This document shows positions 14,209 to 31,372 of a stretch of 64,000 nucleotides of DNA, one piece after another; the first letter of the stretch is position 1; each line of letters opens with the position of its first letter. The notes beneath the pieces are model-generated. The model was not told the DNA's origin. It saw only the letters and a program-made list of their open reading frames with translations, and searched no databases. The DNA comes from Klebsiella pneumoniae (GTDB lineage Bacteria; Myxococcota_A; UBA796; SXON01), in assembly GCA_945862325.1 (NCBI GenBank), contig CAMAXZ010000003.1, positions 1-64,000 on the forward strand. The letters are read 5' to 3'. The translations under genes and the position numbers were made by a program.

Positions 14209-15132
14209 TCACCCCCGCCAGCACACGCAGCGCGCGCACACCGGGTTGGTGGCGATGTCGAGGGCCCGGCGGGCGGGGCGGGTAGAGCGCATCGCGGCCC
14301 GTAGGCCAAACTCGGTAGTCGCAGTAGTCTCAAGAAAGAAGCAGTGGGACCAGGTACCCGTCGGGCCGACGACGCCGGACGTCCACGGTGCGGCGCATCG
14401 TGGCGGACTCGGCGTGCCATCAATGAGCGCGAGTAGGCGCGACTTCGCGTAGTCGGACATCGCGAGGAAACGGCCCTGACTCTCGGAGAAAAAGCGCCTC
14501 ACCATGGTGCTGTCGGTGGCGGGCGCGTTTTCCACGCCCTGGCGCTTGCCGAAACCGCCGCTGGTCGTGTCGGCGGCGAGAAGGCTCATCTCGGTGAACC
14601 CGGTCTCCACCGCCGCGTCGCGGATCTCGGTCAGGTGGTTCACGTTCGCGTTCCACACGGTCACGCGGGCGTGGACGTACATGCCCGTTATCGCACGCAC
14701 GCCGTCGCGCACCGCACTGAGCCCCCGCACGCCTCTGATCTGCTCGTACGTGGTCTCGTCGTGCGCGTCCCACGACACGAAGACTCTTGCCACGGTCGCG
14801 CGAACGACATCGGCGTGCTTCTTCAGCGCGAGACCGTTCGTCATCAGCGAGACCGGCAACTCCTGAGACGTCCGGCGTAGGATGTCCGCGGCGTCGGGCC
14901 GCGAGAGCGGTTCGCCTCCAGTGATCATGATTTCACGAAACCCGAGCTCACGGGCCTCTCGTGCAAGAGCCGCCCACTGGCGCCACCCCAACTCGCCCTG
15001 CTCGGGCTCGCGAAACGCGCACCCACCGCACTTGCTCGTGCACTTGTGGGTGACGTCAAAAATCGCCACCTCTGGATACAAGAGTCCGCTGCTTTTAAGT
15101 AACTGATTGCGGACCTGGCGGGCGAGCGGCAC
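14209..15132 (-). CDS. Radical SAM protein
   Basis: This 307-aa enzyme has the radical SAM cluster motif CTSKCGGC (CxxxCxxC) at ~residues 30-37. The family GGEP motif (MITGGEP), a helix/strand pattern and a 'VSWDAHDE' strand follow. The C-terminus has additional Cys residues (SPPRCAAPW, SHCFF, VCARCVC), typical of a second cluster (SPASM/twitch-type) in enzymes that modify peptides or small molecules. The start is GTG 15132; an ATG two bases away is out of frame. The substrate is not identifiable. It is divergent from the MopE-like lipoprotein gene, with about 35 bp between starts. A role in modifying that protein is possible but unsupported. Confidence 0.8.
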   Translation of the reverse strand: MPLARQVRNQLLKSSGLLYPEVAIFDVTHKCTSKCGGCAFREPEQGELGWRQWAALAREARELGFREIMITGGEPLSRPDAADILRRTSQELPVSLMTNGLALKKHADVVRATVARVFVSWDAHDETTYEQIRGVRGLSAVRDGVRAITGMYVHARVTVWNANVNHLTEIRDAAVETGFTEMSLLAADTTSGGFGKRQGVENAPATDSTMVRRFFSESQGRFLAMSDYAKSRLLALIDGTPSPPRCAAPWTSGVVGPTGTWSHCFFLETTATTEFGLRAAMRSTRPARRALDIATNPVCARCVCWRG

Positions 15133-15142: not shown

Positions 15143-15167
15143 AACACGCGTGCGATACGCTGTGGAC

Positions 15168-17006
15168 ATGCTGTTCATCTTGCTCGCATGCCTGACGCGC
15201 GAAGACGTGTACGCGAGGCGTCTCGCCGAGCTCTCCGACATGGATGGGGACGGTGCCATCGCCCTGCTCGACTGCGATGACTCAGACCCTCGAATCTCCC
15301 CGACGGGCGAGGACGTGCCGTACGATGGGATCGATCAGGACTGCTCCGGCGCGGACCTCGACGACGTCGACGGCGATGGCTTTGCTGTTGCGGTCGATTG
15401 CGACGACGCACAGAGTAGCGTTCACCCCGACGTCGACGAGATTCCCTATGACGGCATCGACCAGGACTGCGACGGTCATGACTTGGTCGATGTGGACGGC
15501 GATGGATTCGACTACCCTGAAGAAGACTGTGATGACGCGGACGCGGCGGTGAACCCGGACGCGGTCGAGACCCCATACGACGCCGTCGATCAAGACTGCG
15601 ATGGGGGTGATCTCGATGACGTCGATGCCGACGGATACGGCATCGATGTCGACTGTGATGATACCGATTCTACGCGGTATCCGGGCGCCCCTGAGGGCTG
15701 GGACGATGCGTTCGTCGACAACGACTGCGACGGTGCAATGGCGCTTGACGCCCGGGAGAGTTTCGGGGGCACTCTTTGGTACTCGCGCGAAGAGGGCGCC
15801 AACCTGGGTACGAGGCTTCAACCGTTCGACGACATCGACGCTGACGGCGTGGAAGAGATCCTCGTGTCGGCTGTCGGATCGAGTGATTTGTACTCGAACA
15901 GCGGCGCGGTTTACCTGTTGTCCGTCGCTTCCACTGGTGATGTGTCAACGGTCGCCCAACGCACCGTGCACGCGGGTGGGGCCGATTGGTATCTCGGAGT
16001 CGCGATGGCCGCCGGTGACGTAGATTCGGACGGCACGCCAGACGCGTTCCTGACCGCGACGGGTCAAGGTACTTTCGGTGGCGGCTATGTCGTGAATGGC
16101 GCCATGCTTTCGGCGCGGGATGTGAACTTGCCCGCGGACGCCTCGATGTGCGTAGACGGGGCCCGGTCCGGGGAGTATTGGGGCAGCGAAGCGGCCTTTG
16201 TCGGAGACGTCGACGGCGATGGGGTCGAGGAGGTCGCGATGTCTGCGTCGTTCGCTCCGGCAGGAGGCTACGAACGTGCCGGCCAGGTCGCGTTGTTCTC
16301 GTATCGAGAAGGGGTGTTTGACGTGGATGATGCCGACTACCTGTGGTCGGGTTACTACGACGACGCTCGGTTCGGCGAGGGCGTGGCGGGTGTCGGTGAT
16401 GCCGATGGGGACGGTCGTCCAGATGTGATGGTAACGGCGGAGAGTGGGGACATCTTCGTCGTGCTTCCTGCCGAAACTGGTTCGGTGGACGACATCGCAA
16501 TCTCGAGGGTCACGCGCGACGGTGATGCCGGACGATACAGAAGTGTCGCTATTGGGGACGCGGACGGCGACGGAAGCACGGACGTCTCTGTCCTGGGGGC
16601 CAGCTACGCCCGCGTGTTCATCGACCTTGGGGAGTTTTCGGTGCGCACCCAGGATGACGCGTGGATGACGGTGTACTCTGCGTCGGCCTCAAGTTTCTCC
16701 GATGCCGCGACGCTCGATGATTTGTCGGGTGATGGGCGTCCGGAGACCGTGCTGACGATGGCGTACTCGAACACCCACCTCACCGCGTGGGTTGGGTTGC
16801 TGCAAAGCGAGTCGCTCGGGTGGCGTGCGGAGGTCGAGGCGGAGTCCATGCCCTTGTCAGCGCTGTCTGTGCGGGACAGCGGCGGGTTCGGGTATCGCGC
16901 GGCGATTGTCAAGGGGCCGCCAGGCTACATGGTGCTCGCGGGCCCATTCGATGATCGTGGCGCCGAGGGTGGCGGCGCCGTTGCGCTCTTGAGGACCCCA
17001 CAGTAG
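15168..17006 (+). CDS. Surface lipoprotein with MopE-like Ca-binding repeats and FG-GAP repeats
   Basis: This is a 612-aa predicted lipoprotein, started at ATG 15168 to give MLFILLAC with the lipidated Cys at residue 8. Residues ~20-185 contain about five MopE-like metal-binding repeats of the form DxDGDGxxxxxDCDD...DGIDQDCDG, rich in Asp and presumably calcium-binding. The rest resembles FG-GAP/integrin-alpha beta-propeller repeats (DADGDGRPDVMVTAE, DGVEEVAMSA). Such proteins are secreted or surface-exposed adhesion-like proteins. It is convergent with the membrane protein gene at 17.0-18.9 kb. A second, related protein lies at 24.5-26.3 kb. Confidence 0.85.
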   Translation: MLFILLACLTREDVYARRLAELSDMDGDGAIALLDCDDSDPRISPTGEDVPYDGIDQDCSGADLDDVDGDGFAVAVDCDDAQSSVHPDVDEIPYDGIDQDCDGHDLVDVDGDGFDYPEEDCDDADAAVNPDAVETPYDAVDQDCDGGDLDDVDADGYGIDVDCDDTDSTRYPGAPEGWDDAFVDNDCDGAMALDARESFGGTLWYSREEGANLGTRLQPFDDIDADGVEEILVSAVGSSDLYSNSGAVYLLSVASTGDVSTVAQRTVHAGGADWYLGVAMAAGDVDSDGTPDAFLTATGQGTFGGGYVVNGAMLSARDVNLPADASMCVDGARSGEYWGSEAAFVGDVDGDGVEEVAMSASFAPAGGYERAGQVALFSYREGVFDVDDADYLWSGYYDDARFGEGVAGVGDADGDGRPDVMVTAESGDIFVVLPAETGSVDDIAISRVTRDGDAGRYRSVAIGDADGDGSTDVSVLGASYARVFIDLGEFSVRTQDDAWMTVYSASASSFSDAATLDDLSGDGRPETVLTMAYSNTHLTAWVGLLQSESLGWRAEVEAESMPLSALSVRDSGGFGYRAAIVKGPPGYMVLAGPFDDRGAEGGGAVALLRTPQ

Positions 17007-17058: not shown

Positions 17059-18921
17059 TCAGTAGACGAGGCGGACGTGGACGCTCCCAGCGCCCGGTTC
17101 TTCGCACGTAAGTGAAACTTGCACTTGTCGAGTGCCGCCGCATTCCACCAGCTCTGCCGATTGTGATCCGCAGGGATCTTGAACGCGAATGGTGACCGCA
17201 GGCGATGTCGCGATCACGGCGCGTTCTCCATGACGGAGCGCCCGCGTGATCACAGTGTCTCCGCACTCCGCCCGCACGCCGCGGCCAGAGTCCCAAACGA
17301 CGGCGCGCGTCCCTTGCACAAAGGAAAGCGACGAGGGCGCGTCCTGAAACTCAGCCATCGCCGGCCAGCGTCTTGTTCCCTCGGTGGCGATGCGTGTCGC
17401 GTCGTCCAGGCGCCCGTCGGCTGCAGCCGAAAGCGCGGCGTGCCAGCGGATGAAGGGCTGTGATGGATGTCGGCGCATCAGCTCCGCCCACCGTTCCGCT
17501 CGCGTTGATGCGCTAGGCAATCGCTGCGTCGTCGAGTACCATCGCACCGAACCCTCGCCGTACAGCAGATCCGCTCGAAGGGTGTACCCTTCAAGGAGCC
17601 AGTCCGGGTATCTCGGATGCGCAGCGCCGTCCCAGTTCGCCAAACGCAGGAATTCCGGACGCTCGCGCTCGGAACTGAGTAGACTCCGGAGCCACGCCTC
17701 GGACGTTCCGTGCTGGGCCGCCACGGCAGCCGGGCGGTGCGTCAGACCCCGTATGTCGAGAACGTTCAGTCCTGGGATATCACCTAACATGCCCACGTCG
17801 ACCGCCGCGACCACGCCACCTGCTGGTACGTTGTTCGAAGCCCACGCGACGTCCTCGGCCACGGGGGTGTCGAGTCCGTGGTCAAGGTGATGCACCACGT
17901 TTGCGATGGCTGAGGCCGGACGGAGCCTGACGTCGAATCGACCGTACCCGCGCGATTCCAGGCAGCTACAAACAATTGTGGCCAACGCGGCCAGAACGCC
18001 AACGGAGATCGACGGTCTGGTCGGCGTTCCCAACGTTGCGTACGCAGCCACCGTTGCGACAACGCCGGGCAACAATAGTCGACCGAACGACATCCAATCG
18101 CCGCTGGCGATGACCAGAGTTGAGGCATGCACGACAAGAGGTAGAGCAACCCAGGCGACGTCGCGCGAGCGAAGCCTGGCAGATGCGGCGGTCGCAACCA
18201 TGATGCGGGCCGCGGTGGTCAGGTCGCCCAAGAGCTGTGCAGCGCCGAATGTCGTGAAGCCTACGAGCTTTATCAGGGCCGGGGTCGGGGTGAGCGCACC
18301 GAACCAGGCGTACCGCGCGGCGTGGTAGGCGACGACGGCGCTGACGGTCGCCGCCGCCAGCATCTGGTCTCGCGGCGTCGAGCGCCGCCGCGCCGCTGTC
18401 GCGAGCGCGGCCACGAACAATAGTCCTCCTTCCGGGCGCGTGAGCGAAGCTGCACCTACCAGCGCCACTCCCAGGCCCCACTGCGCTCCGAACAGCAGAC
18501 TCCATCCGATGGCCAGCAACGCCGCATAGAGCGTGGTCTCCAGCCCGATGACGCCCCATCGGTTCAGCGGAGCCCAAGATGCGACCGCCCACAACGCGAC
18601 TGTGCCCGCGAATCCGGCCGTAAGGCGGGCGTGTAGGAGCGCCAACACCGCGACGGCACCGCCGACGGCGACGACTTGGGCCATGATGTCGAGATCGAGG
18701 CCCAACCGGGCGGCGATCGCCAGGATGGCGACGAGGAGGAAGTTCGAATATCCTTCGACGCGCTCGCCAGTGCTCCACTCCAGCGCGCCCGAATCGGCCC
18801 AGTGGCGCGCGTACGCGATCGTGATGTACACGTCGTCGACCGTGCCGGGCCAGTGCGGCGCCGCCAGAAGCCCGAACACGACCACCGCAACCACCAAGCG
18901 CACAGGACTCGATCTCGACAT
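17059..18921 (-). CDS. GT-C-like multispanning membrane glycosyltransferase, AftB-like
   Basis: This 620-aa protein begins at ATG 18921 (MSRSSPVRLVV); the 889-aa track ORF extends it through non-coding sequence. It has about 10-12 membrane helices. The first large loop holds DDVYITIAYARHWADSGALEWSTGERVEGYSNFL, matching the DDAYI..RYA....G....GERVEGYSNF pattern of GT-C enzymes related to mycobacterial AftB. The two Asp are the expected catalytic or metal-site residues. The C-terminal ~220 residues form a soluble extracytoplasmic domain. The probable job is transferring a lipid-linked sugar to an envelope or surface glycan; donor and acceptor are unknown. Base composition is slightly less GC-rich than the neighbours. 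Confidence 0.75.
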   Translation of the reverse strand: MSRSSPVRLVVAVVVFGLLAAPHWPGTVDDVYITIAYARHWADSGALEWSTGERVEGYSNFLLVAILAIAARLGLDLDIMAQVVAVGGAVAVLALLHARLTAGFAGTVALWAVASWAPLNRWGVIGLETTLYAALLAIGWSLLFGAQWGLGVALVGAASLTRPEGGLLFVAALATAARRRSTPRDQMLAAATVSAVVAYHAARYAWFGALTPTPALIKLVGFTTFGAAQLLGDLTTAARIMVATAASARLRSRDVAWVALPLVVHASTLVIASGDWMSFGRLLLPGVVATVAAYATLGTPTRPSISVGVLAALATIVCSCLESRGYGRFDVRLRPASAIANVVHHLDHGLDTPVAEDVAWASNNVPAGGVVAAVDVGMLGDIPGLNVLDIRGLTHRPAAVAAQHGTSEAWLRSLLSSERERPEFLRLANWDGAAHPRYPDWLLEGYTLRADLLYGEGSVRWYSTTQRLPSASTRAERWAELMRRHPSQPFIRWHAALSAAADGRLDDATRIATEGTRRWPAMAEFQDAPSSLSFVQGTRAVVWDSGRGVRAECGDTVITRALRHGERAVIATSPAVTIRVQDPCGSQSAELVECGGTRQVQVSLTCEEPGAGSVHVRLVY

Positions 18922-19038
18922 CACGGCATCACGGGTCCCCTCGCGTATCGCGACGGCAGCGCGTTTGCCGCCGTCGCGGCGCTCCCGTCGCGCCGCCGGG
19001 CGAGACCCGCTCCCCCGGATCCGTGACCGATCATTGCG

Positions 19039-20121
19039 TTGCCCGGCGCGTCGACCCCGATAGGTCGGCGGCCCGCGGTCTCCACCGCGCGGGTCGGAGG
19101 TTGCGTGCTGGCGTTGATCCTCGCGGTTGGCGGCATCGGCTGCGCGGAGCCCGAGGCCGCGGCGAAGCCGGCCGCGGGTCCGGTGCCGGTGCGCGTGGAG
19201 ACGGTGTCGCCGCGGCGCCTGGAGCGCACGCGCGAAGCCACGGGGACGATCGACGCGATCGACTCCGCGGAGCTCCGGCCCGAGGTGCAGGGCCTGGTGG
19301 AGGCGGTGTTGTTCGAGGACGGCGCGCGCGTCGCGAAAGGGCAAGCGCTGGTTCGGCTCCGGGCCGCGGACGCCCGGGCGAACCTGAACGATGCGGAGGC
19401 CCGCGCGGCGCTCGCGGACGCGGGGCTCGGGCGTACCCGCACCCTGGAGGCCCGCGGCGACGTGGCGCGAGCGGACCTGGAGCGCGCCGAGGCCGAGGCG
19501 AAGCTGGCGCGCGCCGCCGTGGCCCGCGCGGAGGAGGCGCTTCGGCGGACGACGGTGCTCGCGCCCTTCGACGGCGTCGCGGGCCGACGCGAGGTGTCCG
19601 TCGGCGAGCTCGTCGACCCTTCGCGCGTGATCACGCGGATCGAAGGGCTCTCCCGCCTCGTGGTCGACGCCGCGCTGCCGGAGGACGCGCTCGCCGAGGT
19701 GGCCCCCGGGCAGGCGGCGACGGTGCACGCGCTCGGGCAGGACTTCACGGGCTCGGTCACCTACGTCGCGCCGCGCGTCGCCGAGGGCACGCGCACCGTG
19801 GCGCTTCGGGTAGCGCTCGCGGAGCCGGGGCCCCTGCGCCCCGGCATGACCGCCCAGGTGCGCGTGATCACGGCCGAAGTGCCGGACGCCCTGATGGTGC
19901 CGACGCAGGCGATCGCACGCTCGGCGTCGGGCGCGGCGGTTTGGGTGGTGGCGGACGGCGACACCGTCGAGCGCAGGCCGGTCACCACCGGGCAGCGCGA
20001 CGCCGAGCGCGCCGAGGTGGTGTCGGGGTTGGCGGCCGGCGAGCGCGTGGTGGTGGAGGGGCTCGCGCGGATGCGCCCGGGGGCCTCGGTCGCCATCAAG
20101 GCCGACGAGGCGCCGCGGTGA
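19039..20121 (+). CDS. RND efflux periplasmic adaptor subunit (membrane-fusion protein)
   Basis: This 360-aa lipoprotein-like adaptor has a signal ending in a lipobox (AVGGIGC, residues ~31-35). It then shows the adaptor architecture: lipoyl-like half (VEAVLFEDGARVAKGQALVRL), alpha-hairpin (residues ~105-150, charged/Ala-rich), second lipoyl half (TTVLAPFDGVAGRREVSVGELV), beta-barrel and membrane-proximal domain (VPTQAIARSASGAAVWVV). The likely start is TTG 19039, though GTG alternatives exist. It links the inner-membrane permease to the outer-membrane channel. It overlaps the permease start by GTGA. Substrate cannot be read from sequence. The operon is tightly coupled. Confidence 0.88.
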   Translation: MPGASTPIGRRPAVSTARVGGCVLALILAVGGIGCAEPEAAAKPAAGPVPVRVETVSPRRLERTREATGTIDAIDSAELRPEVQGLVEAVLFEDGARVAKGQALVRLRAADARANLNDAEARAALADAGLGRTRTLEARGDVARADLERAEAEAKLARAAVARAEEALRRTTVLAPFDGVAGRREVSVGELVDPSRVITRIEGLSRLVVDAALPEDALAEVAPGQAATVHALGQDFTGSVTYVAPRVAEGTRTVALRVALAEPGPLRPGMTAQVRVITAEVPDALMVPTQAIARSASGAAVWVVADGDTVERRPVTTGQRDAERAEVVSGLAAGERVVVEGLARMRPGASVAIKADEAPR

Positions 20122-23100
20122 ACGCCACCGACGTGTTCATCCATCGCCCGGTGCTGGCGCTGGTCGTGTCGGTCCTGCTCTGCTTGATGGGCGCGCTCGG
20201 CTACACCCTCCTCGGGGTGCGCGAGACGCCCGACGTCGAGTCGCCGGTGGTCACCGTGACGACGGCGTGGCCCGGCGCGGATCCGGCGATCGTCGAGTCG
20301 GACGTGACCGAGCCGCTCGAGCGGGAGCTCAACGGAATCGAGGGGGTACGTACGCTCTCGAGCACGAGCACGGACGGGCGGTCGGAGATCACGATCGAGT
20401 TCGCGCTCGAGCGTGACATCGAGGACGCGGCGAACGACGTCCGGAGCCGGGTGTCCCGCGCGCGGCGGGCGCTTCCCGACGAGGTCGACGAGCCGACGGT
20501 GTCGAAGTCCGACGCAGGCGCCTCTTCGGTCATGTTCCTCCGGCTCGTCGGCGAGGGGTCCGACCTCCTCGAGCTGACCGACGTCGCGGACACCGTGGTG
20601 CGGTCGCGCCTCGAGAACGTGCCGGGGGTGAGCGGCATCGACGTGTTCGGCGGGCAGACCTACGCCATGCGGATCGACCTCGACGCGGCGCAGATGGCGG
20701 CGCGCGGGGTGACGGTGGCGGATGTCGAGCGGGCGCTCGATTCGGGCAATGTCGAGCTTCCAACCGGGCGGATCGAGGGCGCCGCGACCCAGCTCACGAT
20801 GCACCTCGACGGCGGGCTGCGCACCCCCGACGAGTTCGGCGCGGTGGTGGTACGGACCGACGGAGACGCGAGGGTATCCCTGCGGGACGTCGCGACCGTG
20901 CGGCTCGGCGCCGCGAACGAGCGCACCGCGGGGCGCGCCGACGGTGTCCCCGCGATCTCCATCCCGATCGACCCGCAGGCGAAGGCCAACGTCGTCGACA
21001 TCTCCGACGAGGTGTGGCGACGCATCCCCGAGGTGCAAGCCGACCTGCCGGACGGGATGCGCTTGGATGTCGTGTTCGACCGTGCCGAGTTCGTGCGTCG
21101 TTCGATCCACGACGTGCAGCTCACCCTGCTCGTGGCCTTCGGGCTGGTGGTGGCCGTCATCTTCGCGTTCCTGCGGGACCTGCGCGCGACCCTCGTGCCC
21201 GCGGTGGCCATCCCCGTGTCGATCGTCGCGACCTTCCTCGTCTTGTGGCTCGCCGGCTTCACCATCAACGTGTTCACGCTGTTCGGGCTCGTGCTCGCGA
21301 TCGGCCTCGTCGTGGACGACGCGATCGTCGTGCTCGAGAACATCGTGCGGCACATGGAGGACGGGGAGTCGCCGATCGACGCCGCGATTCACGGCACCCG
21401 CGAGATCGCCGGGGCGGTGGTGGCGACGACCCTGGTGCTCGTCGTGGTGTTCCTGCCGGTGGTGTTCACCGGAGGGGCAACCGGGCGGTTGTTCCTCGAG
21501 TTCGGCGTGACCGTGGCCGCGAGCGTGGCGATCAGCATGGTCGTCGCGCTCACCTTGACGCCGATGTTGACGTCACGCATCGCGCGCGTGAGCGCCAAGT
21601 CGCACGCGACCCCGGGCCTGCTGGATCGTGGGTTCGCCTGGTCGTTGGCGGTGACCCTGGCGCGCCCCTGGCTCGTGCTCCCGGTGCTCGCCGGGGCGAT
21701 GATCACGGGGGTCCTCGGGCTGCAGACCGTGCCGCGCGAATTCTTCCCGATCGAGGATCGCAGCAACTTCTTCGTGCGCGCCGACGCGCAGGAGGGGGCC
21801 ACCTTCGCGTACACCGACGCGCGCATGCGCGAGCTCGAGGCGCTCCTGCTCCCGCTCGTGCCGGAGCGGCGGGTCGCGCTCGCGCGGGTCGCCACGGGTC
21901 GCGGGGGCGTGGCGGCGCCGACGAACGCGGGCTCGATCTTCTTCTCGCTGCTGCCGCCGGACGAGCGCGAACGGTCCCAACAAGAGATCGTCGCGGCGCT
22001 CCGCGGGCCGATCGCCGAGGTGACCGCGTTCCGGGTGATCCCGATCCAGACCCCGACGGTCGGTCGGGGGTTCTCGGCGCCGCTCCAGATCGTGCTGCAG
22101 CACCCCGACTTCGACACCCTCGCCGCCCACCTCGGGGACTTCGTGCGCGCGGTGCGCGAGATCCCCGGCTTGACTTCGGTCAACGAAGACCTCCGGCTCG
22201 ATCGGCCGGAGCTCGGCCTCCGGGTCGATCGCGACCGCGCGGCCGCGGTCGGGGTCTCGGTGCGGGACGTCGCGCGGACGCTCCAGGTGCTCACGAGCGC
22301 GGCGGAGCTGTCGACGTTCAAGCGTGGAGTGCGTCAGTACGACGTGATCGCCGAGCTCGACCACGAGGGGCGCGACACCCCGGGGGACCTCGGCGGCGTC
22401 TACGTGCGCGCCGCGGACGGCGGGCTCGTCCCGCTCTCCAACCTCGTCACGGGCGAAGAGCGCGTCGCGGCCTCGACCCGGTACCACTACCAGCGCTCGC
22501 CTTCCGCCACGATCAGCGCCAACATCGAAGGCATCACGATCGGAGAGGGCATCGCGCGCGTCGAGGCGCTCGCGCGCGAGACCCTGCCGGCGGGCTTCCG
22601 CACCGCTCTCGCCGGCCAGGCCAAGGACTTCGTCGAAGGCACGTCCTCCCTCGCCACGATGTTCCTCCTCGCGCTCGTGCTCGTCTACCTGCTCCTCGCG
22701 GCACAATTCGACTCGTTCGTCTCGCCGGTGTCGATCATGCTGACGGTGCCGCTGGCCTTGGCCGGCGCCTTCGTCGCCTTGCAGATCACGGGGATGACCC
22801 TGTCGTTCTTCGCGCAGGTCGGGCTCATCCTGCTCGTCGGGCTCGTGACGAAGAACGGCATCCTCATCGTCGAGTATGCGCGTCAGCTCGGCCACACCGA
22901 AGGGCTCGACCCGTGGGCGGCGGCGGAGAAGGCGACACGCCTCCGTTTTCGGCCGATCCTCATGACCTCGGTCGCGACGATCGGCGGCGCCGTTCCCATC
23001 GCGATCGGGATCTCCGGCGAGAGCCGCGCCGCGCTGGGCGTGGCGGTGGCCGGCGGCATGTTGTCCGCGACGATCCTCACCTTGTACGTCACTCCGGTCG

Positions 23101-24443
23101 TGTACGCGTGGCTCGCGTCGTTCGGGCGGCGAGACGGTCACGCAGCGACACGGGCGCTGGTCGCCCTGCTGGTCGTGTCCCTCGCGTTGCCGGCGCATGC
23201 GTCGGAGCCGGCGAGCGGATCTGGCGACGAAGCGGCGTGGACGCTCCGGGATGCGCTCCGCCTGGCGCAGGCGGGTAACCTCGACGTTCGAGGTGCAGAT
23301 GCCGACGTGCGGCGGGCCGTGGCCGACGCGGACGTCGCGCGGGCCGCGTGGCTCCCCAGCGCCACCGCCACGGCGACCACGCTCGCCGGCGCCACGGGAA
23401 ACGCGAACGTCGCGGGTCTCGCGGTCGATCCTACCGTCATCGCCGCGGTGCGCCTCGACGTCCCGGTGCTCGACCTCGCGGCGATCGCGTCCGCCCGAGC
23501 CGCGCGCCTGGACGCGCGCGCCGCGGAGGCCGACCGTGACGCGGTGCTCGAGGCCGCCCTCGCCGACGTCGCGCGGCGCTTCGTCGAGGTGCAACGGGCC
23601 GAGGCCGCGGTCACCGCGGTGGAGGCGCGTCTGCGTCACGCCGCCCGACTCGCGGAGACGGTCGGGGCGCGGGTCGAGGTTGGGGCCGCTCCGGCGATCG
23701 ACCTGACGCGCGCGCGGCTCGAGGTTCGGCGTGCCGAGCTCGGCGCGCTCACCCAGCGCACGGCCGTCGCCGCCGCGCGCCTCGCCTTGCTCGAGGCGTT
23801 GGGGGCGCCGCTCGACCGGCCCGTCCGCGTCGCGGTCGCGTCGCCGCTCGCGTCCCCGGCGTCGGTGCCGACCGACGCCGCGCTCACTGCCGCGCTCGAC
23901 GCCGCCCGCAGTCAGCGCCCGGACGTGGTCGCCGCGCGAGCCCGACTCGACGCCGCCGCCGCCGATCGCCGTGCCGCCGAGGCCGATCGCCTCCCGACGG
24001 TCGACGCGTGGGGTGTCGCGCAGGCGCGTGTCGGCGGCGAGCCCGCCGCGGGCGGCGGTGTCCAGGCCAGCGTCCCTCTCTTTCAAGGTGGATCCTTGCT
24101 CGCCGCCCGACGCTCGCGCATCGCGGCCGAGGACGCCCAGGCCGTGGTGGTCGCCGCGTCCGAGCGCGCCGCGGAGGCCGACGTCCGCCTCGCCTTGCAG
24201 ACGGCGCGGGACGCCGCCGCCGCCCTCCTCGTCGCAGCGGACGCCCTCGTCCTCGCCGACGACGAGCTCGCGAGGGCGGAGTCGCGGTATCGCGCCGGCG
24301 AGGGCGCCAACCTCGAGGTCGTCGCCGCGCTCGCGTCGCGTGCGGAGGCCGAGCTCGCCCACGTCGATGCAGTCGCGGCGTTCAACCTTGCGATTGTGGG
24401 TTGGTACGCGGCGAGGGGAGGGGTGAGGGAGTTGGGGGGGTAG
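20118..24443 (+). CDS. RND efflux permease fused in frame to a TolC-like outer-membrane factor
   Basis: One uninterrupted 1441-codon frame runs from GTG 20118. Residues 1 to ~1005 are an HAE1-type RND pump: periplasmic loops, twelve membrane helices, proton-relay Asp pair in TM4 (GLVVDDAIVVLEN), and TM10 Lys (LLVGLVTKNGIL). It ends with a normal C-terminal helix and cytoplasmic tail (GRRDGHAAT). It continues directly into a signal-like hydrophobic stretch (RALVALLVVSLALPAHASEP) and then an outer-membrane factor domain with alpha-hairpins (ALRLAQAGNLDVR, DVVAARARLDAA, YRAGEGANLEVV). No stop codon or ATG/GTG/TTG start sits at the junction ahead of the signal-like segment. Topologically a thirteenth segment would place the OMF in the periplasm, where signal peptidase could release it. 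An unseen internal CTG start is an alternative. Confidence 0.85.
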   Translation: MNATDVFIHRPVLALVVSVLLCLMGALGYTLLGVRETPDVESPVVTVTTAWPGADPAIVESDVTEPLERELNGIEGVRTLSSTSTDGRSEITIEFALERDIEDAANDVRSRVSRARRALPDEVDEPTVSKSDAGASSVMFLRLVGEGSDLLELTDVADTVVRSRLENVPGVSGIDVFGGQTYAMRIDLDAAQMAARGVTVADVERALDSGNVELPTGRIEGAATQLTMHLDGGLRTPDEFGAVVVRTDGDARVSLRDVATVRLGAANERTAGRADGVPAISIPIDPQAKANVVDISDEVWRRIPEVQADLPDGMRLDVVFDRAEFVRRSIHDVQLTLLVAFGLVVAVIFAFLRDLRATLVPAVAIPVSIVATFLVLWLAGFTINVFTLFGLVLAIGLVVDDAIVVLENIVRHMEDGESPIDAAIHGTREIAGAVVATTLVLVVVFLPVVFTGGATGRLFLEFGVTVAASVAISMVVALTLTPMLTSRIARVSAKSHATPGLLDRGFAWSLAVTLARPWLVLPVLAGAMITGVLGLQTVPREFFPIEDRSNFFVRADAQEGATFAYTDARMRELEALLLPLVPERRVALARVATGRGGVAAPTNAGSIFFSLLPPDERERSQQEIVAALRGPIAEVTAFRVIPIQTPTVGRGFSAPLQIVLQHPDFDTLAAHLGDFVRAVREIPGLTSVNEDLRLDRPELGLRVDRDRAAAVGVSVRDVARTLQVLTSAAELSTFKRGVRQYDVIAELDHEGRDTPGDLGGVYVRAADGGLVPLSNLVTGEERVAASTRYHYQRSPSATISANIEGITIGEGIARVEALARETLPAGFRTALAGQAKDFVEGTSSLATMFLLALVLVYLLLAAQFDSFVSPVSIMLTVPLALAGAFVALQITGMTLSFFAQVGLILLVGLVTKNGILIVEYARQLGHTEGLDPWAAAEKATRLRFRPILMTSVATIGGAVPIAIGISGESRAALGVAVAGGMLSATILTLYVTPVVYAWLASFGRRDGHAATRALVALLVVSLALPAHASEPASGSGDEAAWTLRDALRLAQAGNLDVRGADADVRRAVADADVARAAWLPSATATATTLAGATGNANVAGLAVDPTVIAAVRLDVPVLDLAAIASARAARLDARAAEADRDAVLEAALADVARRFVEVQRAEAAVTAVEARLRHAARLAETVGARVEVGAAPAIDLTRARLEVRRAELGALTQRTAVAAARLALLEALGAPLDRPVRVAVASPLASPASVPTDAALTAALDAARSQRPDVVAARARLDAAAADRRAAEADRLPTVDAWGVAQARVGGEPAAGGGVQASVPLFQGGSLLAARRSRIAAEDAQAVVVAASERAAEADVRLALQTARDAAAALLVAADALVLADDELARAESRYRAGEGANLEVVAALASRAEAELAHVDAVAAFNLAIVGWYAARGGVRELGG

Positions 24444-24483: not shown

Positions 24484-26286
24484 ATGCTTGCGCTCGCCTT
24501 CTTCGGCGCCTGTTTGATCGACACGGCCACGTACGAGCGCCGCCGAGCAGCGCTCGCCGACGACGACCACGACTCGTACGTTCGGGAACTCGACTGCGAT
24601 GACGGCGACGCATCGGTGTTCCCCGGCGCGCCGGAGCTTTGCGACGGGGTGGATCAGGACTGCGACGGCACCGCGGATGAGGATCCGGTCGAGGCGCCGA
24701 TGTGGTACGGGGATCGCGACGGTGACGGAAGCGGGGGCGCGACGGGGTTTGGTGTCATGGCGTGCGAAGCGCCTGAGGGCCATGTGGCGGACACGCTCGA
24801 CTGTGACGATGATGACCGGGACGTATACCCGGGCGCCGCGGAGACGCCGTACGACGGCGTGGACGACGACTGTGACGGCAGCGACCTCACCGATGTCGAC
24901 GGCGACGGGGGCGTCGCGATCGAAGCGGGCGGGGACGACTGTGACGACCGCGACGGCGCGACGCACGTGGGGGCGGCCGAGGGGTGGGGAGACGACGGCG
25001 CTGACAACGATTGTGACGGCGACGCTCACGATCCCGTGGAGTGGACGACCGACCTGGCCCTGACGCGGATCGACGGGGTAGCGCCGGGAGGAGAGTTGGG
25101 ACGCCGGTTCGACGTGTGGCTCGAGGGCGACTGCGTGTTTGCCACCGCGCCGTACGCCGACGCGGCGACTGGAGCCGTGTATGCGATTCCCGCGGCGCCA
25201 GGCGTCATCAGGGCGGACGCGGCGGGCTTCGTCGTCGGCAGCGTCGGCTCTTCATTCCTGTCGGCGACCGTGGACGCCAGCGCTGGTGGGAGCGTCGCAG
25301 TCTCTCAGGTGACCGATCGCGATGGCGCGGGCACGGTGTTCCTCCTGGACGGAACAGGGCTCTGCGCCGGCGACGCTGGAGTGGTGGACTCCTTGGCAAC
25401 GTTGACAATCCGGGGGGTGGAAGCCGACTCCTACTTCGGGTCGGACGCGGTGTGGCTCGATGACGTCAACGGAGACGGGCTGTCCGAGCTCGCGGTGACC
25501 GCGCCGGGCGCCGACGGTGGTGGTACCGGTCGCGGCGCGCTCTACGTATGGGAGTCGCCGGGCTCCGGTACCGTCGACAGCGCGTCCGCGGACCTGGCAC
25601 TCTTTGGAACGCAGGATGGAAGCGGACTTGAGGTCGTCACCACCGCGTACGACGACGCCGGCCCAGGCGTACCTTGGGTGGTCGTCGGCCAGCAAGTAGC
25701 TACCCCGGGCACCGTCGGGCTCTTTGTGGTCGACGCGCTCTCCGCCAGGAGTGGCCCGCTCGACGCCGCCGCCCGGGGCGGCATCGTCACGTGGTCGACC
25801 GGTCGCCTGTTCTCGGCCACGACAGTCGGCGACACGGACTTCAATGGGGCCGACAACCTGGTGGCCGGCACTTGGGCCTTCGGGTTGTGGGACATCTCGA
25901 ACCTGGACGGCGTCGTCGACGAAGCGGACTTTGAGGCGCTGCTCACCCACAACACCGACGGGGAGTGGATCACCGGGGTCGCGCGCGTCGACGACTACGA
26001 CGAAGACGCGCGCGCGGACATCGTGTTGCTCGCGGACGACGCACCGCAGGGCACTGGGCGCGGCCAACTCGCTCTGGTTCCCGGTGCGCGCACCTTCGGT
26101 GGGAGTCTGGACTTCGGCACGGTGCCATTCACGGCGCTTGGCGGGACCGGCGAGAGTTTTGCTTATCGGGCGCGGCCCGCAGGGGATCTCGATGGCGACG
26201 GCGTGCCCGAACTCGCGGTCGCAGCGCCGGGTGCGTCCCACGGGGCTGCCAACGAAGGTTCGATCTACTTTATGCCTTTGCCCTGA
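24484..26286 (+). CDS. Second MopE/FG-GAP-like surface lipoprotein
   Basis: This 600-aa predicted lipoprotein has the signal MLALAFFGAC with the lipidated Cys at residue 10. MopE-like repeats follow (ELDCDDGDASVFPGAPELCDGVDQDCDGTADEDP, then TLDCDDDDRDVYPGAAETPYDGVDDDCDG). Residues ~200-590 are FG-GAP-like beta-propeller repeats (DVNGDGLSELAVTAPGAD, DLDGDGVPELAVAAPGAS). Domain order is the same as in the 15.2-17.0 kb protein. The stop region overlaps, convergently, the last codons of the membrane protein on the opposite strand by 22 bp. Confidence 0.85.
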   Translation: MLALAFFGACLIDTATYERRRAALADDDHDSYVRELDCDDGDASVFPGAPELCDGVDQDCDGTADEDPVEAPMWYGDRDGDGSGGATGFGVMACEAPEGHVADTLDCDDDDRDVYPGAAETPYDGVDDDCDGSDLTDVDGDGGVAIEAGGDDCDDRDGATHVGAAEGWGDDGADNDCDGDAHDPVEWTTDLALTRIDGVAPGGELGRRFDVWLEGDCVFATAPYADAATGAVYAIPAAPGVIRADAAGFVVGSVGSSFLSATVDASAGGSVAVSQVTDRDGAGTVFLLDGTGLCAGDAGVVDSLATLTIRGVEADSYFGSDAVWLDDVNGDGLSELAVTAPGADGGGTGRGALYVWESPGSGTVDSASADLALFGTQDGSGLEVVTTAYDDAGPGVPWVVVGQQVATPGTVGLFVVDALSARSGPLDAAARGGIVTWSTGRLFSATTVGDTDFNGADNLVAGTWAFGLWDISNLDGVVDEADFEALLTHNTDGEWITGVARVDDYDEDARADIVLLADDAPQGTGRGQLALVPGARTFGGSLDFGTVPFTALGGTGESFAYRARPAGDLDGDGVPELAVAAPGASHGAANEGSIYFMPLP

Positions 26287-29964: not shown

Positions 29965-30097
29965 GGTGCGGGTAGGGTAGCGCGGCGGCGTGGCGAAGGT
30001 CACGACGGGCGTGGGCGCGCCGGCCGCCGGTGATCGACAACGACAAATTCGAGCGGGGTTCTGTCCGTACGAGCCCGCCGTTGGCGTCAGGTCGGGC

Positions 30098-31372
30098 ATG
30101 GAGACCTGGATGCCAACCCGACGCCACCGACGCCTCGTCCTTGTGTCCCTCGACTGGCTTCGCCCGAAGGATCCGCGCGTCAGCCTCGGTCACGCCTCGC
30201 TCCGCGCGCGCCTCGCCGACGTCCCCGACCTCGAGGTGTTGGCTGTCACCTGCGCCGTGAACGCGCCGGGGTTCGACGGGGAGAGGCTGCTCGCAGACAT
30301 CCTCCGCGCCTCCCGCGGCGGCGCGGACATCGCCATCGGCGTCTACGTCTGGAACGAGCCCGTCGTTCAATGGCTACTTCCCGCGCTTCGGCGCGCAGGC
30401 TTCTCCGGCCGGATCCTGCTCGGCGGTCCCCAGATCAGCTACGCCCCGTCGGGAATCCAGGCGACGTACCCGGCGGCGGACGGCTTCATCCGCGGCTACG
30501 CCGAGGAGGCCCTCGCCGCGGTCGCCGCCACGGATGCCGCGATCGTGCTCGACGGCGTCAGCTGGCAGCGTGGGCACGACGCGACGACCCCGGCTTCTGC
30601 CGAGCTCACGCGGCTCCCATCGGCGATCCTGACCGGGATCCTCCCGATCCAGCCGTTCATGCGCTGGGAGACGCAGCGCGGCTGCATCTACTCCTGCTCC
30701 TTCTGTCAGCATCGCGAGTCTGGTGCGCGCCTGCGGCAGCGTGTTCTCGCCGACGACCGTGTAGCGAACGAGGTCGACGCGCTTGTTGCCGGTGGGGCGC
30801 GGGACATCGCGGTGCTCGACCCCATCTTCAACGCGAATCCGGCCGCCACGGACATCCTTGGTCGCTTCGCCAGGAAGGGCTTTCGCGGGCGGTTGTCGCT
30901 CCAGTCGCGGTTCGAGATGGTCGACGCCGACTTCCTCGACGCGTGTGGTGGGCTCGATGTACGGCTCGAGTTCGGCCTCCAGACGATTCACGCCTCGGAG
31001 ATGCGGGCGAGCGCCCGGATGAACGACCTCGTCCGCACGGAGGCGGTCATCGCCGAGCTCCACCGTCGCGGTATCGCGTTCGAGGTCTCGCTCATCTACG
31101 GGCTCCCGACGCAGACGCTCGCCTCTTTCGAGGCCAGCGTTCGCTGGTGTCAGGAGCGCGGGGTGCCGGTCATACGCGCGTTCCCGCTGATGCTCCTTCG
31201 TGGGACCGCCCTCGAGCGCTCGCGGCGCCGTTGGTCCCTCGTGGAGAGCGACGACACAATCCCGGTGGTCGTCGAAAGCGACAGCTTCAGCAGGACAGAG
31301 TGGGAAGCGATGCGGGCGCTTGCTGACGCCTTGCCCGTAGACGACGCTCCCCGCGTCCTGGGTGCGGCCTGA
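30098..31372 (+). CDS. Cobalamin-binding-domain radical SAM protein
   Basis: This 424-aa protein starts at ATG 30098 (METWMPTRRHR); the longer ORF begins in poor upstream sequence. Residues 1-130 form a B12-binding-like Rossmann domain (LVLVSLDWLR, then GADIAIGVYVWNE, ILLGGPQISY). The radical SAM domain follows with cluster CIYSCSFC (CxxxCxxC) at ~residues 189-196, then DPIFNANP and LEFGLQTIHASEM. Members of this class often methylate, rearrange or cross-link unactivated carbons. No precursor-peptide gene or partner is visible. It is the last intact gene before the mobile element and runs away from its left edge fragments. Confidence 0.8.
   Translation: METWMPTRRHRRLVLVSLDWLRPKDPRVSLGHASLRARLADVPDLEVLAVTCAVNAPGFDGERLLADILRASRGGADIAIGVYVWNEPVVQWLLPALRRAGFSGRILLGGPQISYAPSGIQATYPAADGFIRGYAEEALAAVAATDAAIVLDGVSWQRGHDATTPASAELTRLPSAILTGILPIQPFMRWETQRGCIYSCSFCQHRESGARLRQRVLADDRVANEVDALVAGGARDIAVLDPIFNANPAATDILGRFARKGFRGRLSLQSRFEMVDADFLDACGGLDVRLEFGLQTIHASEMRASARMNDLVRTEAVIAELHRRGIAFEVSLIYGLPTQTLASFEASVRWCQERGVPVIRAFPLMLLRGTALERSRRRWSLVESDDTIPVVVESDSFSRTEWEAMRALADALPVDDAPRVLGAA

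Follow-up and report, generated by a model that had tools for sequence, protein, structure and literature searches.

Tripartite pumps are usually described as three separately made parts. In the window (the whole 64,000-nucleotide stretch of DNA analysed here) an RND permease and a TolC-type outer membrane factor (OMF) lie in one open reading frame behind an adaptor gene, which raises the questions of whether such a fusion is real and how one chain could supply both a pump and its channel.

Results

Pump and channel in a single frame

The features relevant to these questions are:

19039-20121, plus strand: membrane fusion protein (periplasmic adaptor), start codon uncertain, with GGIGC as probable lipobox (241 bits with NCBIfam TIGR01730, RND_mfp, against a cut-off of 95)
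20118-24443, plus strand: fused gene for RND permease, putative signal peptide and OMF (1441 aa, single frame)
20130-23111, plus strand: RND permease part, residues 5-998 (Pfam ACR_tran; best PDB sequence match MdtB, 9lyq)
23127-23153, plus strand: basic loop after TM12 (RRDGHAATR), predicted to be cytoplasmic and to form the n-region of the internal signal peptide
23154-23201, plus strand: putative core and cleavage motif of the internal signal peptide (ALVALLVVSLALPAHA; junction alignments, separate helix in the model)
23202-24440, plus strand: predicted mature OMF part with two OEP repeats (Pfam; AF2 pLDDT 89.4; Foldseek match to TolC, E 6.6e-21)
23247-23804 and 23886-24410, plus strand: the two OEP repeats

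The preliminary description had delimited the gene at 20118-24443 and proposed that no stop separates the permease from a signal-like segment and a complete OMF. Both statements proved right: the frame runs from a GTG start at 20118 to a TAG ending at 24443, 1441 codons without internal stop, and Pfam recognises in its product ACR_tran at residues 5-998 (E 1e-277) followed by two OEP repeats, the last of them ending at residue 1430 (E 6e-40). The stop of the adaptor gene and the start of the fused gene overlap by 4 nt. GC3 is 0.83 over residues 986-1045 and the codon-position GC pattern continues unchanged across the junction, thus giving no sign of a frameshift.

The first part of the product is an RND protein, with a full-length ACR_tran domain and a proton relay (D400, D401, K912, R943 and T950, the counterparts of D407, D408, K940, R971 and T978 of AcrB) that is invariant in alignment A2 of full-length fused relatives of family A, the lineage to which the window gene belongs. 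It is nearest to multidrug-type permeases (NF033617, MdtB/MdtC, AcrB) and falls below every curated cut-off, scoring 1024 bits with NF033617 (the best NCBIfam multidrug score; cut-off 1250), 698 with TIGR00915 (cut-off 940) and 391 with TIGR00914, the CusA/CzcA (HME) model (cut-off 701). The earlier impression of an HAE1-type rather than a CzcA-like pump is therefore borne out by best score only, and the same HAE1/MdtB-like scores would predict amphiphilic compounds rather than metals as substrates.

The second part belongs to the OMF/TolC family by its two OEP repeats and its fold. The AF2 model, built from an alignment of 26 OMFs, shows the paired strands and the long helices typical of such proteins; Foldseek retrieved TolC as the best match (TM 0.77 normalised by query), the best PDB matches being TolC, ST50, CmeC, SilC and OprM. 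An OprM/NodT-type lipoprotein is not indicated, since the predicted mature start, SEPASGSG, contains no cysteine. Compared with the OMF parts of fused relatives this domain is 33-45% identical, the closest being those of loci L062 (45%) and L046 (40%).

Recurrence of the fusion

A survey of relatives, suggested in the preliminary description, found the same fusion in eight other genomes, independent MAGs among them. Family A is fused in L046-L050 and also in L062, with L051 and L052 as contig-end fragments, and its order-level fused members are 48-55% identical to the window protein over the whole length. Scanning contigs with the pump alignment A3 gave 16 subfamily loci, every one in the genome of an uncultured organism with the label Deltaproteobacteria, Proteobacteria, Pseudomonadota or Myxococcota. 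Two further, distant RND lineages within the same taxonomic order are fused as well, one (B) with products of about 1490-1504 aa and the other (C) of about 1484-1564 aa, the latter with one additional longer open frame. When a junction profile was applied to 379 sampled Myxococcota genomes, stop-free matches spanning the junction occurred in at least some 46, a lower bound counted over the listed best matches. All 11 loci fetched in full hold one long gene with both parts; nine of them (L145-L149, L151-L153 and L155) have a recognisable adaptor gene immediately upstream, while in L150 the fused gene reaches the contig end and in L154 no adaptor was detected. None of the other RND genes examined in the genome that carries the window is fused. 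Plasmid searches returned no fused relative among the best 5000 records with the whole protein, and one weak RND match with the tail of the window protein alone.

The closest RND relatives (L039-L044; 67-72% identical, same family) stop at about 1005-1030 aa, where each ends in a short tail unrelated to the others, and have no adjacent OMF gene; the fusion is thus not essential for this kind of pump. In the RND tree the window gene is nested among six unfused genes from its own family (clade support 100/99, forks around the window 97/88 and 100/99), the next relatives being all fused. Five changes between fused and unfused are required over the complete tree, and well supported branches force at least three of them.

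The preliminary description had taken a stop or start codon at this point in relatives as the mark of an assembly or sequencing artefact, that is, of a missed stop or frameshift joining two neighbouring genes. This expectation holds in part: the closest relatives do stop at the junction and the source genome is a 112-contig assembly, but no OMF lies behind those stops that could have been joined, and more distant relatives are fused without any stop. Since the same anatomy recurs in independent MAGs, the composition is continuous over the junction and a single-contig genome of 5.85 Mb (G130) carries a 1475-aa fused gene of another fusion lineage, an artefact can be rejected for the entire family and is hardly credible for the window; the fusion is real and not an assembly error. 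It is just as hard to believe that the OMF part is a decaying, functionless passenger, as the lack of this part in close relatives might suggest, for its fold model is intact, both OEP repeats score over the cut-off and its resemblance to the OMFs of fused relatives is retained.

Anatomy of the junction

The junction reads, in order, TM12, RRDGHAATR, ALVALLVVSLALPAHA, SEPASGSGDEAAW and the first OMF helix, an order shared by the fused relatives inspected. The signal-like segment proposed earlier is recognisable in it, with RRDGHAATR as basic n-region, ALVALLVVSLAL as hydrophobic core and AHA as A-x-A motif; a signal peptidase I cut is predicted after A1028, between positions 23201 and 23202, as judged from motif and hydrophobicity. 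The OMF model places a separate helix at about residues 1007-1023, followed by a low-confidence linker. The proposed topology, with a cytoplasmic pump end, one extra membrane segment and a periplasmic OMF, agrees with this arrangement.

All junctions of relatives have a hydrophobic segment followed by a motif of signal peptidase I type, usually 1-7 residues ahead of the OMF, whereas the linker of the window is longer, AHA lying 13 residues before the OMF start. A relaxed motif, [AVSTGIL]-x-A no more than 12 residues ahead of the OMF, is present in 33 of 34 junctions, the window being the sole exception, and is indistinguishable from shuffled segments (mean 31.7); strict AxA occurs in 27 of 34 (shuffled mean 19.6, maximum 27). 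These statistics are weak because the junction segments are alanine-rich. A positional motif, A-[polar]-A lying 1-4 residues ahead of the OMF, a range that does not reach the AHA of the window, was counted in 24 of the 34 (2000 shuffles gave a mean of 1.7 and a maximum of 7), a figure to be read as descriptive since the motif was defined post hoc and the sequences are related.

Discussion

A probable precursor with an internal signal peptide

The C-terminus of RND permeases is cytoplasmic, as is established for AcrB, whereas an OMF has to leave the cytoplasm; a signal sequence is therefore required at the junction. Given that the fusion recurs across Myxococcota, pump and channel are probably synthesised as a single precursor that the cell then cuts in two. 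We consider it very probable, from the sequence features described above, that the OMF has kept a signal peptide of its own, through which it is exported, and that signal peptidase I frees it, so that pump and channel arise in a 1:1 ratio. The ribosome would first make the 12-helix permease; after the basic loop, the retained signal peptide would launch a new Sec export step, and signal peptidase I would cut after AHA on the periplasmic side. The freed OMF would then trimerise and enter the outer membrane, and a short additional helix would stay behind at the C-terminus of the RND part. One translation event would thereby yield pump and channel in equal numbers, to go with the lipoprotein adaptor from the gene immediately upstream. 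A gene for a type I signal peptidase was identified (Peptidase_S26, E 9.5e-52). The cleaved 1:1 precursor already put forward in the preliminary description is supported, and we infer the cleavage step itself, as well as its timing, the assembly and any benefit of the 1:1 supply.

If uncut, the protein would be a covalent tether in which a thirteenth membrane helix joins RND and OMF in one chain bridging the envelope. Residues 1007-1023 could indeed form a stable membrane helix, and a cut is not proven by sequence. The first OMF helix would, however, then lie 1-7 residues from the inner-membrane helix in relatives and 13 in the window, and OMF helix H1 belongs to the equatorial domain, midway along the 100 Å periplasmic barrel (PMC8277102). 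A linker of a few residues, as in the relatives, cannot bridge the inner membrane to the equatorial level, so that a working channel would need the cut; the cleavage-type motif, moreover, recurs at a fixed place. We therefore regard the tether as very improbable. Nearly as improbable is that the OMF arises mainly by internal initiation in the 3' end of the RND part, with the fusion as a minor product. An in-frame GTG at 23100 and several GTG, CTG and TTG codons in the segment could serve this purpose, but no Shine-Dalgarno-like sequence precedes the candidate codons, although even the gene's own start has only a weak one, and every ribosome completing the pump also makes the OMF part, there being no stop in the RND frame.

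A fused precursor that signal peptidase cuts would hold pump and channel at a set ratio and tie the channel to one pump; an outer-membrane protein would moreover be exported in the wake of a membrane protein with 12 helices. The fused gene lends itself well to a clean test of whether bacteria cleave internal signal peptides, and annotation pipelines naming such genes just 'RND permease' miss the channel.

Origin and relation to known systems

The nesting of the window gene among unfused members, with fused next relatives, implies that the OMF was lost at least three times in the family, or lost once and regained. Retention would fit better than regain, because the OMF of the window is closest to other fused OMFs and no similar stand-alone OMF is found in the family. 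Re-fusion from a local OMF gene was also considered and appears unlikely: a stand-alone twin was sought in the family and none was found, the matches being only 27-39% identical and mostly partial.

Four loci (L079, L080, L081 and L082, of genomes G015, G011, G005 and G008, all members of the same family) contain another RND-OMF pair in one frame with only a TAG in between (L079:3409, L080:5210, L081:3278 and L082:5204), directly followed by ATG and a signal peptide belonging to the OMF. Re-initiation or readthrough would be possible in this arrangement, which is likely to represent an intermediate towards fusion; losing the TAG would produce exactly the anatomy described here.

AcrAB-TolC, MdtABC and MexAB-OprM have in common with the window system an RND permease with proton relay, a lipoprotein adaptor and a TolC-type OMF; their pump and channel are separate genes, whereas the window has one frame with a putative internal signal peptide. 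CzcA/CusA-type fusions of similar length, to which the preliminary description had alluded, do exist on plasmids of Bacteroidota: genes of Spirosoma (Spirosoma linguale Slin_6771), Flavobacterium (WP_264563277.1) and Pontibacter (WP_137761640.1), annotated as CusA/CzcA-family, encode 1452-1469 aa with ACR_tran and OEP domains. Like the window gene they join, in one frame, RND, a hydrophobic segment with an AxA-like end (TQAQ, GKAQ or AQAQ) and OEP domain, but they have metal ATPases alongside, a downstream instead of an upstream adaptor and a different RND lineage, and because of the latter we do not file the window gene with them despite the same architecture. With several RND lineages in Myxococcota and the CzcA-type in Bacteroidota, it is tempting to speculate that RND-OMF precursors with an internal signal peptidase site evolved repeatedly as a means of coordinating production of the inner- and outer-membrane halves of a trans-envelope machine, each pump being made with a dedicated channel, a reading that we hold to be as likely as not. 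Our literature search, in which subscription papers were thinly covered, found no description of an RND-OMF fusion of either the Myxococcota or the Bacteroidota type.

A precedent for the proposed processing is FbcH of Bradyrhizobium japonicum, a cytochrome b/cytochrome c1 precursor cut at an internal signal sequence. As in the window, a polytopic inner-membrane protein is in frame with a periplasmic subunit; unlike in the window, the protein belongs to a respiratory complex and both products remain at the inner membrane.

Genomic neighbourhood

The pump operon is flanked by two genes, at 15150-17006 and 24484-26286, in which FG-GAP repeats occur together with putative metal-binding motifs of MopE type; an FG-GAP-like gene likewise follows the unfused relative L042. 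On the minus strand, an 889-aa open frame without Pfam match (17059-19728) overlaps the start of the adaptor gene. Radical SAM genes are found at 14209-15132 (minus strand) and 29990-31372 (plus strand), the second with a weak B12-binding match. Elsewhere in the window's genome (G000:C73:9099-18920), two tandem RND permeases have a stand-alone OMF close downstream.
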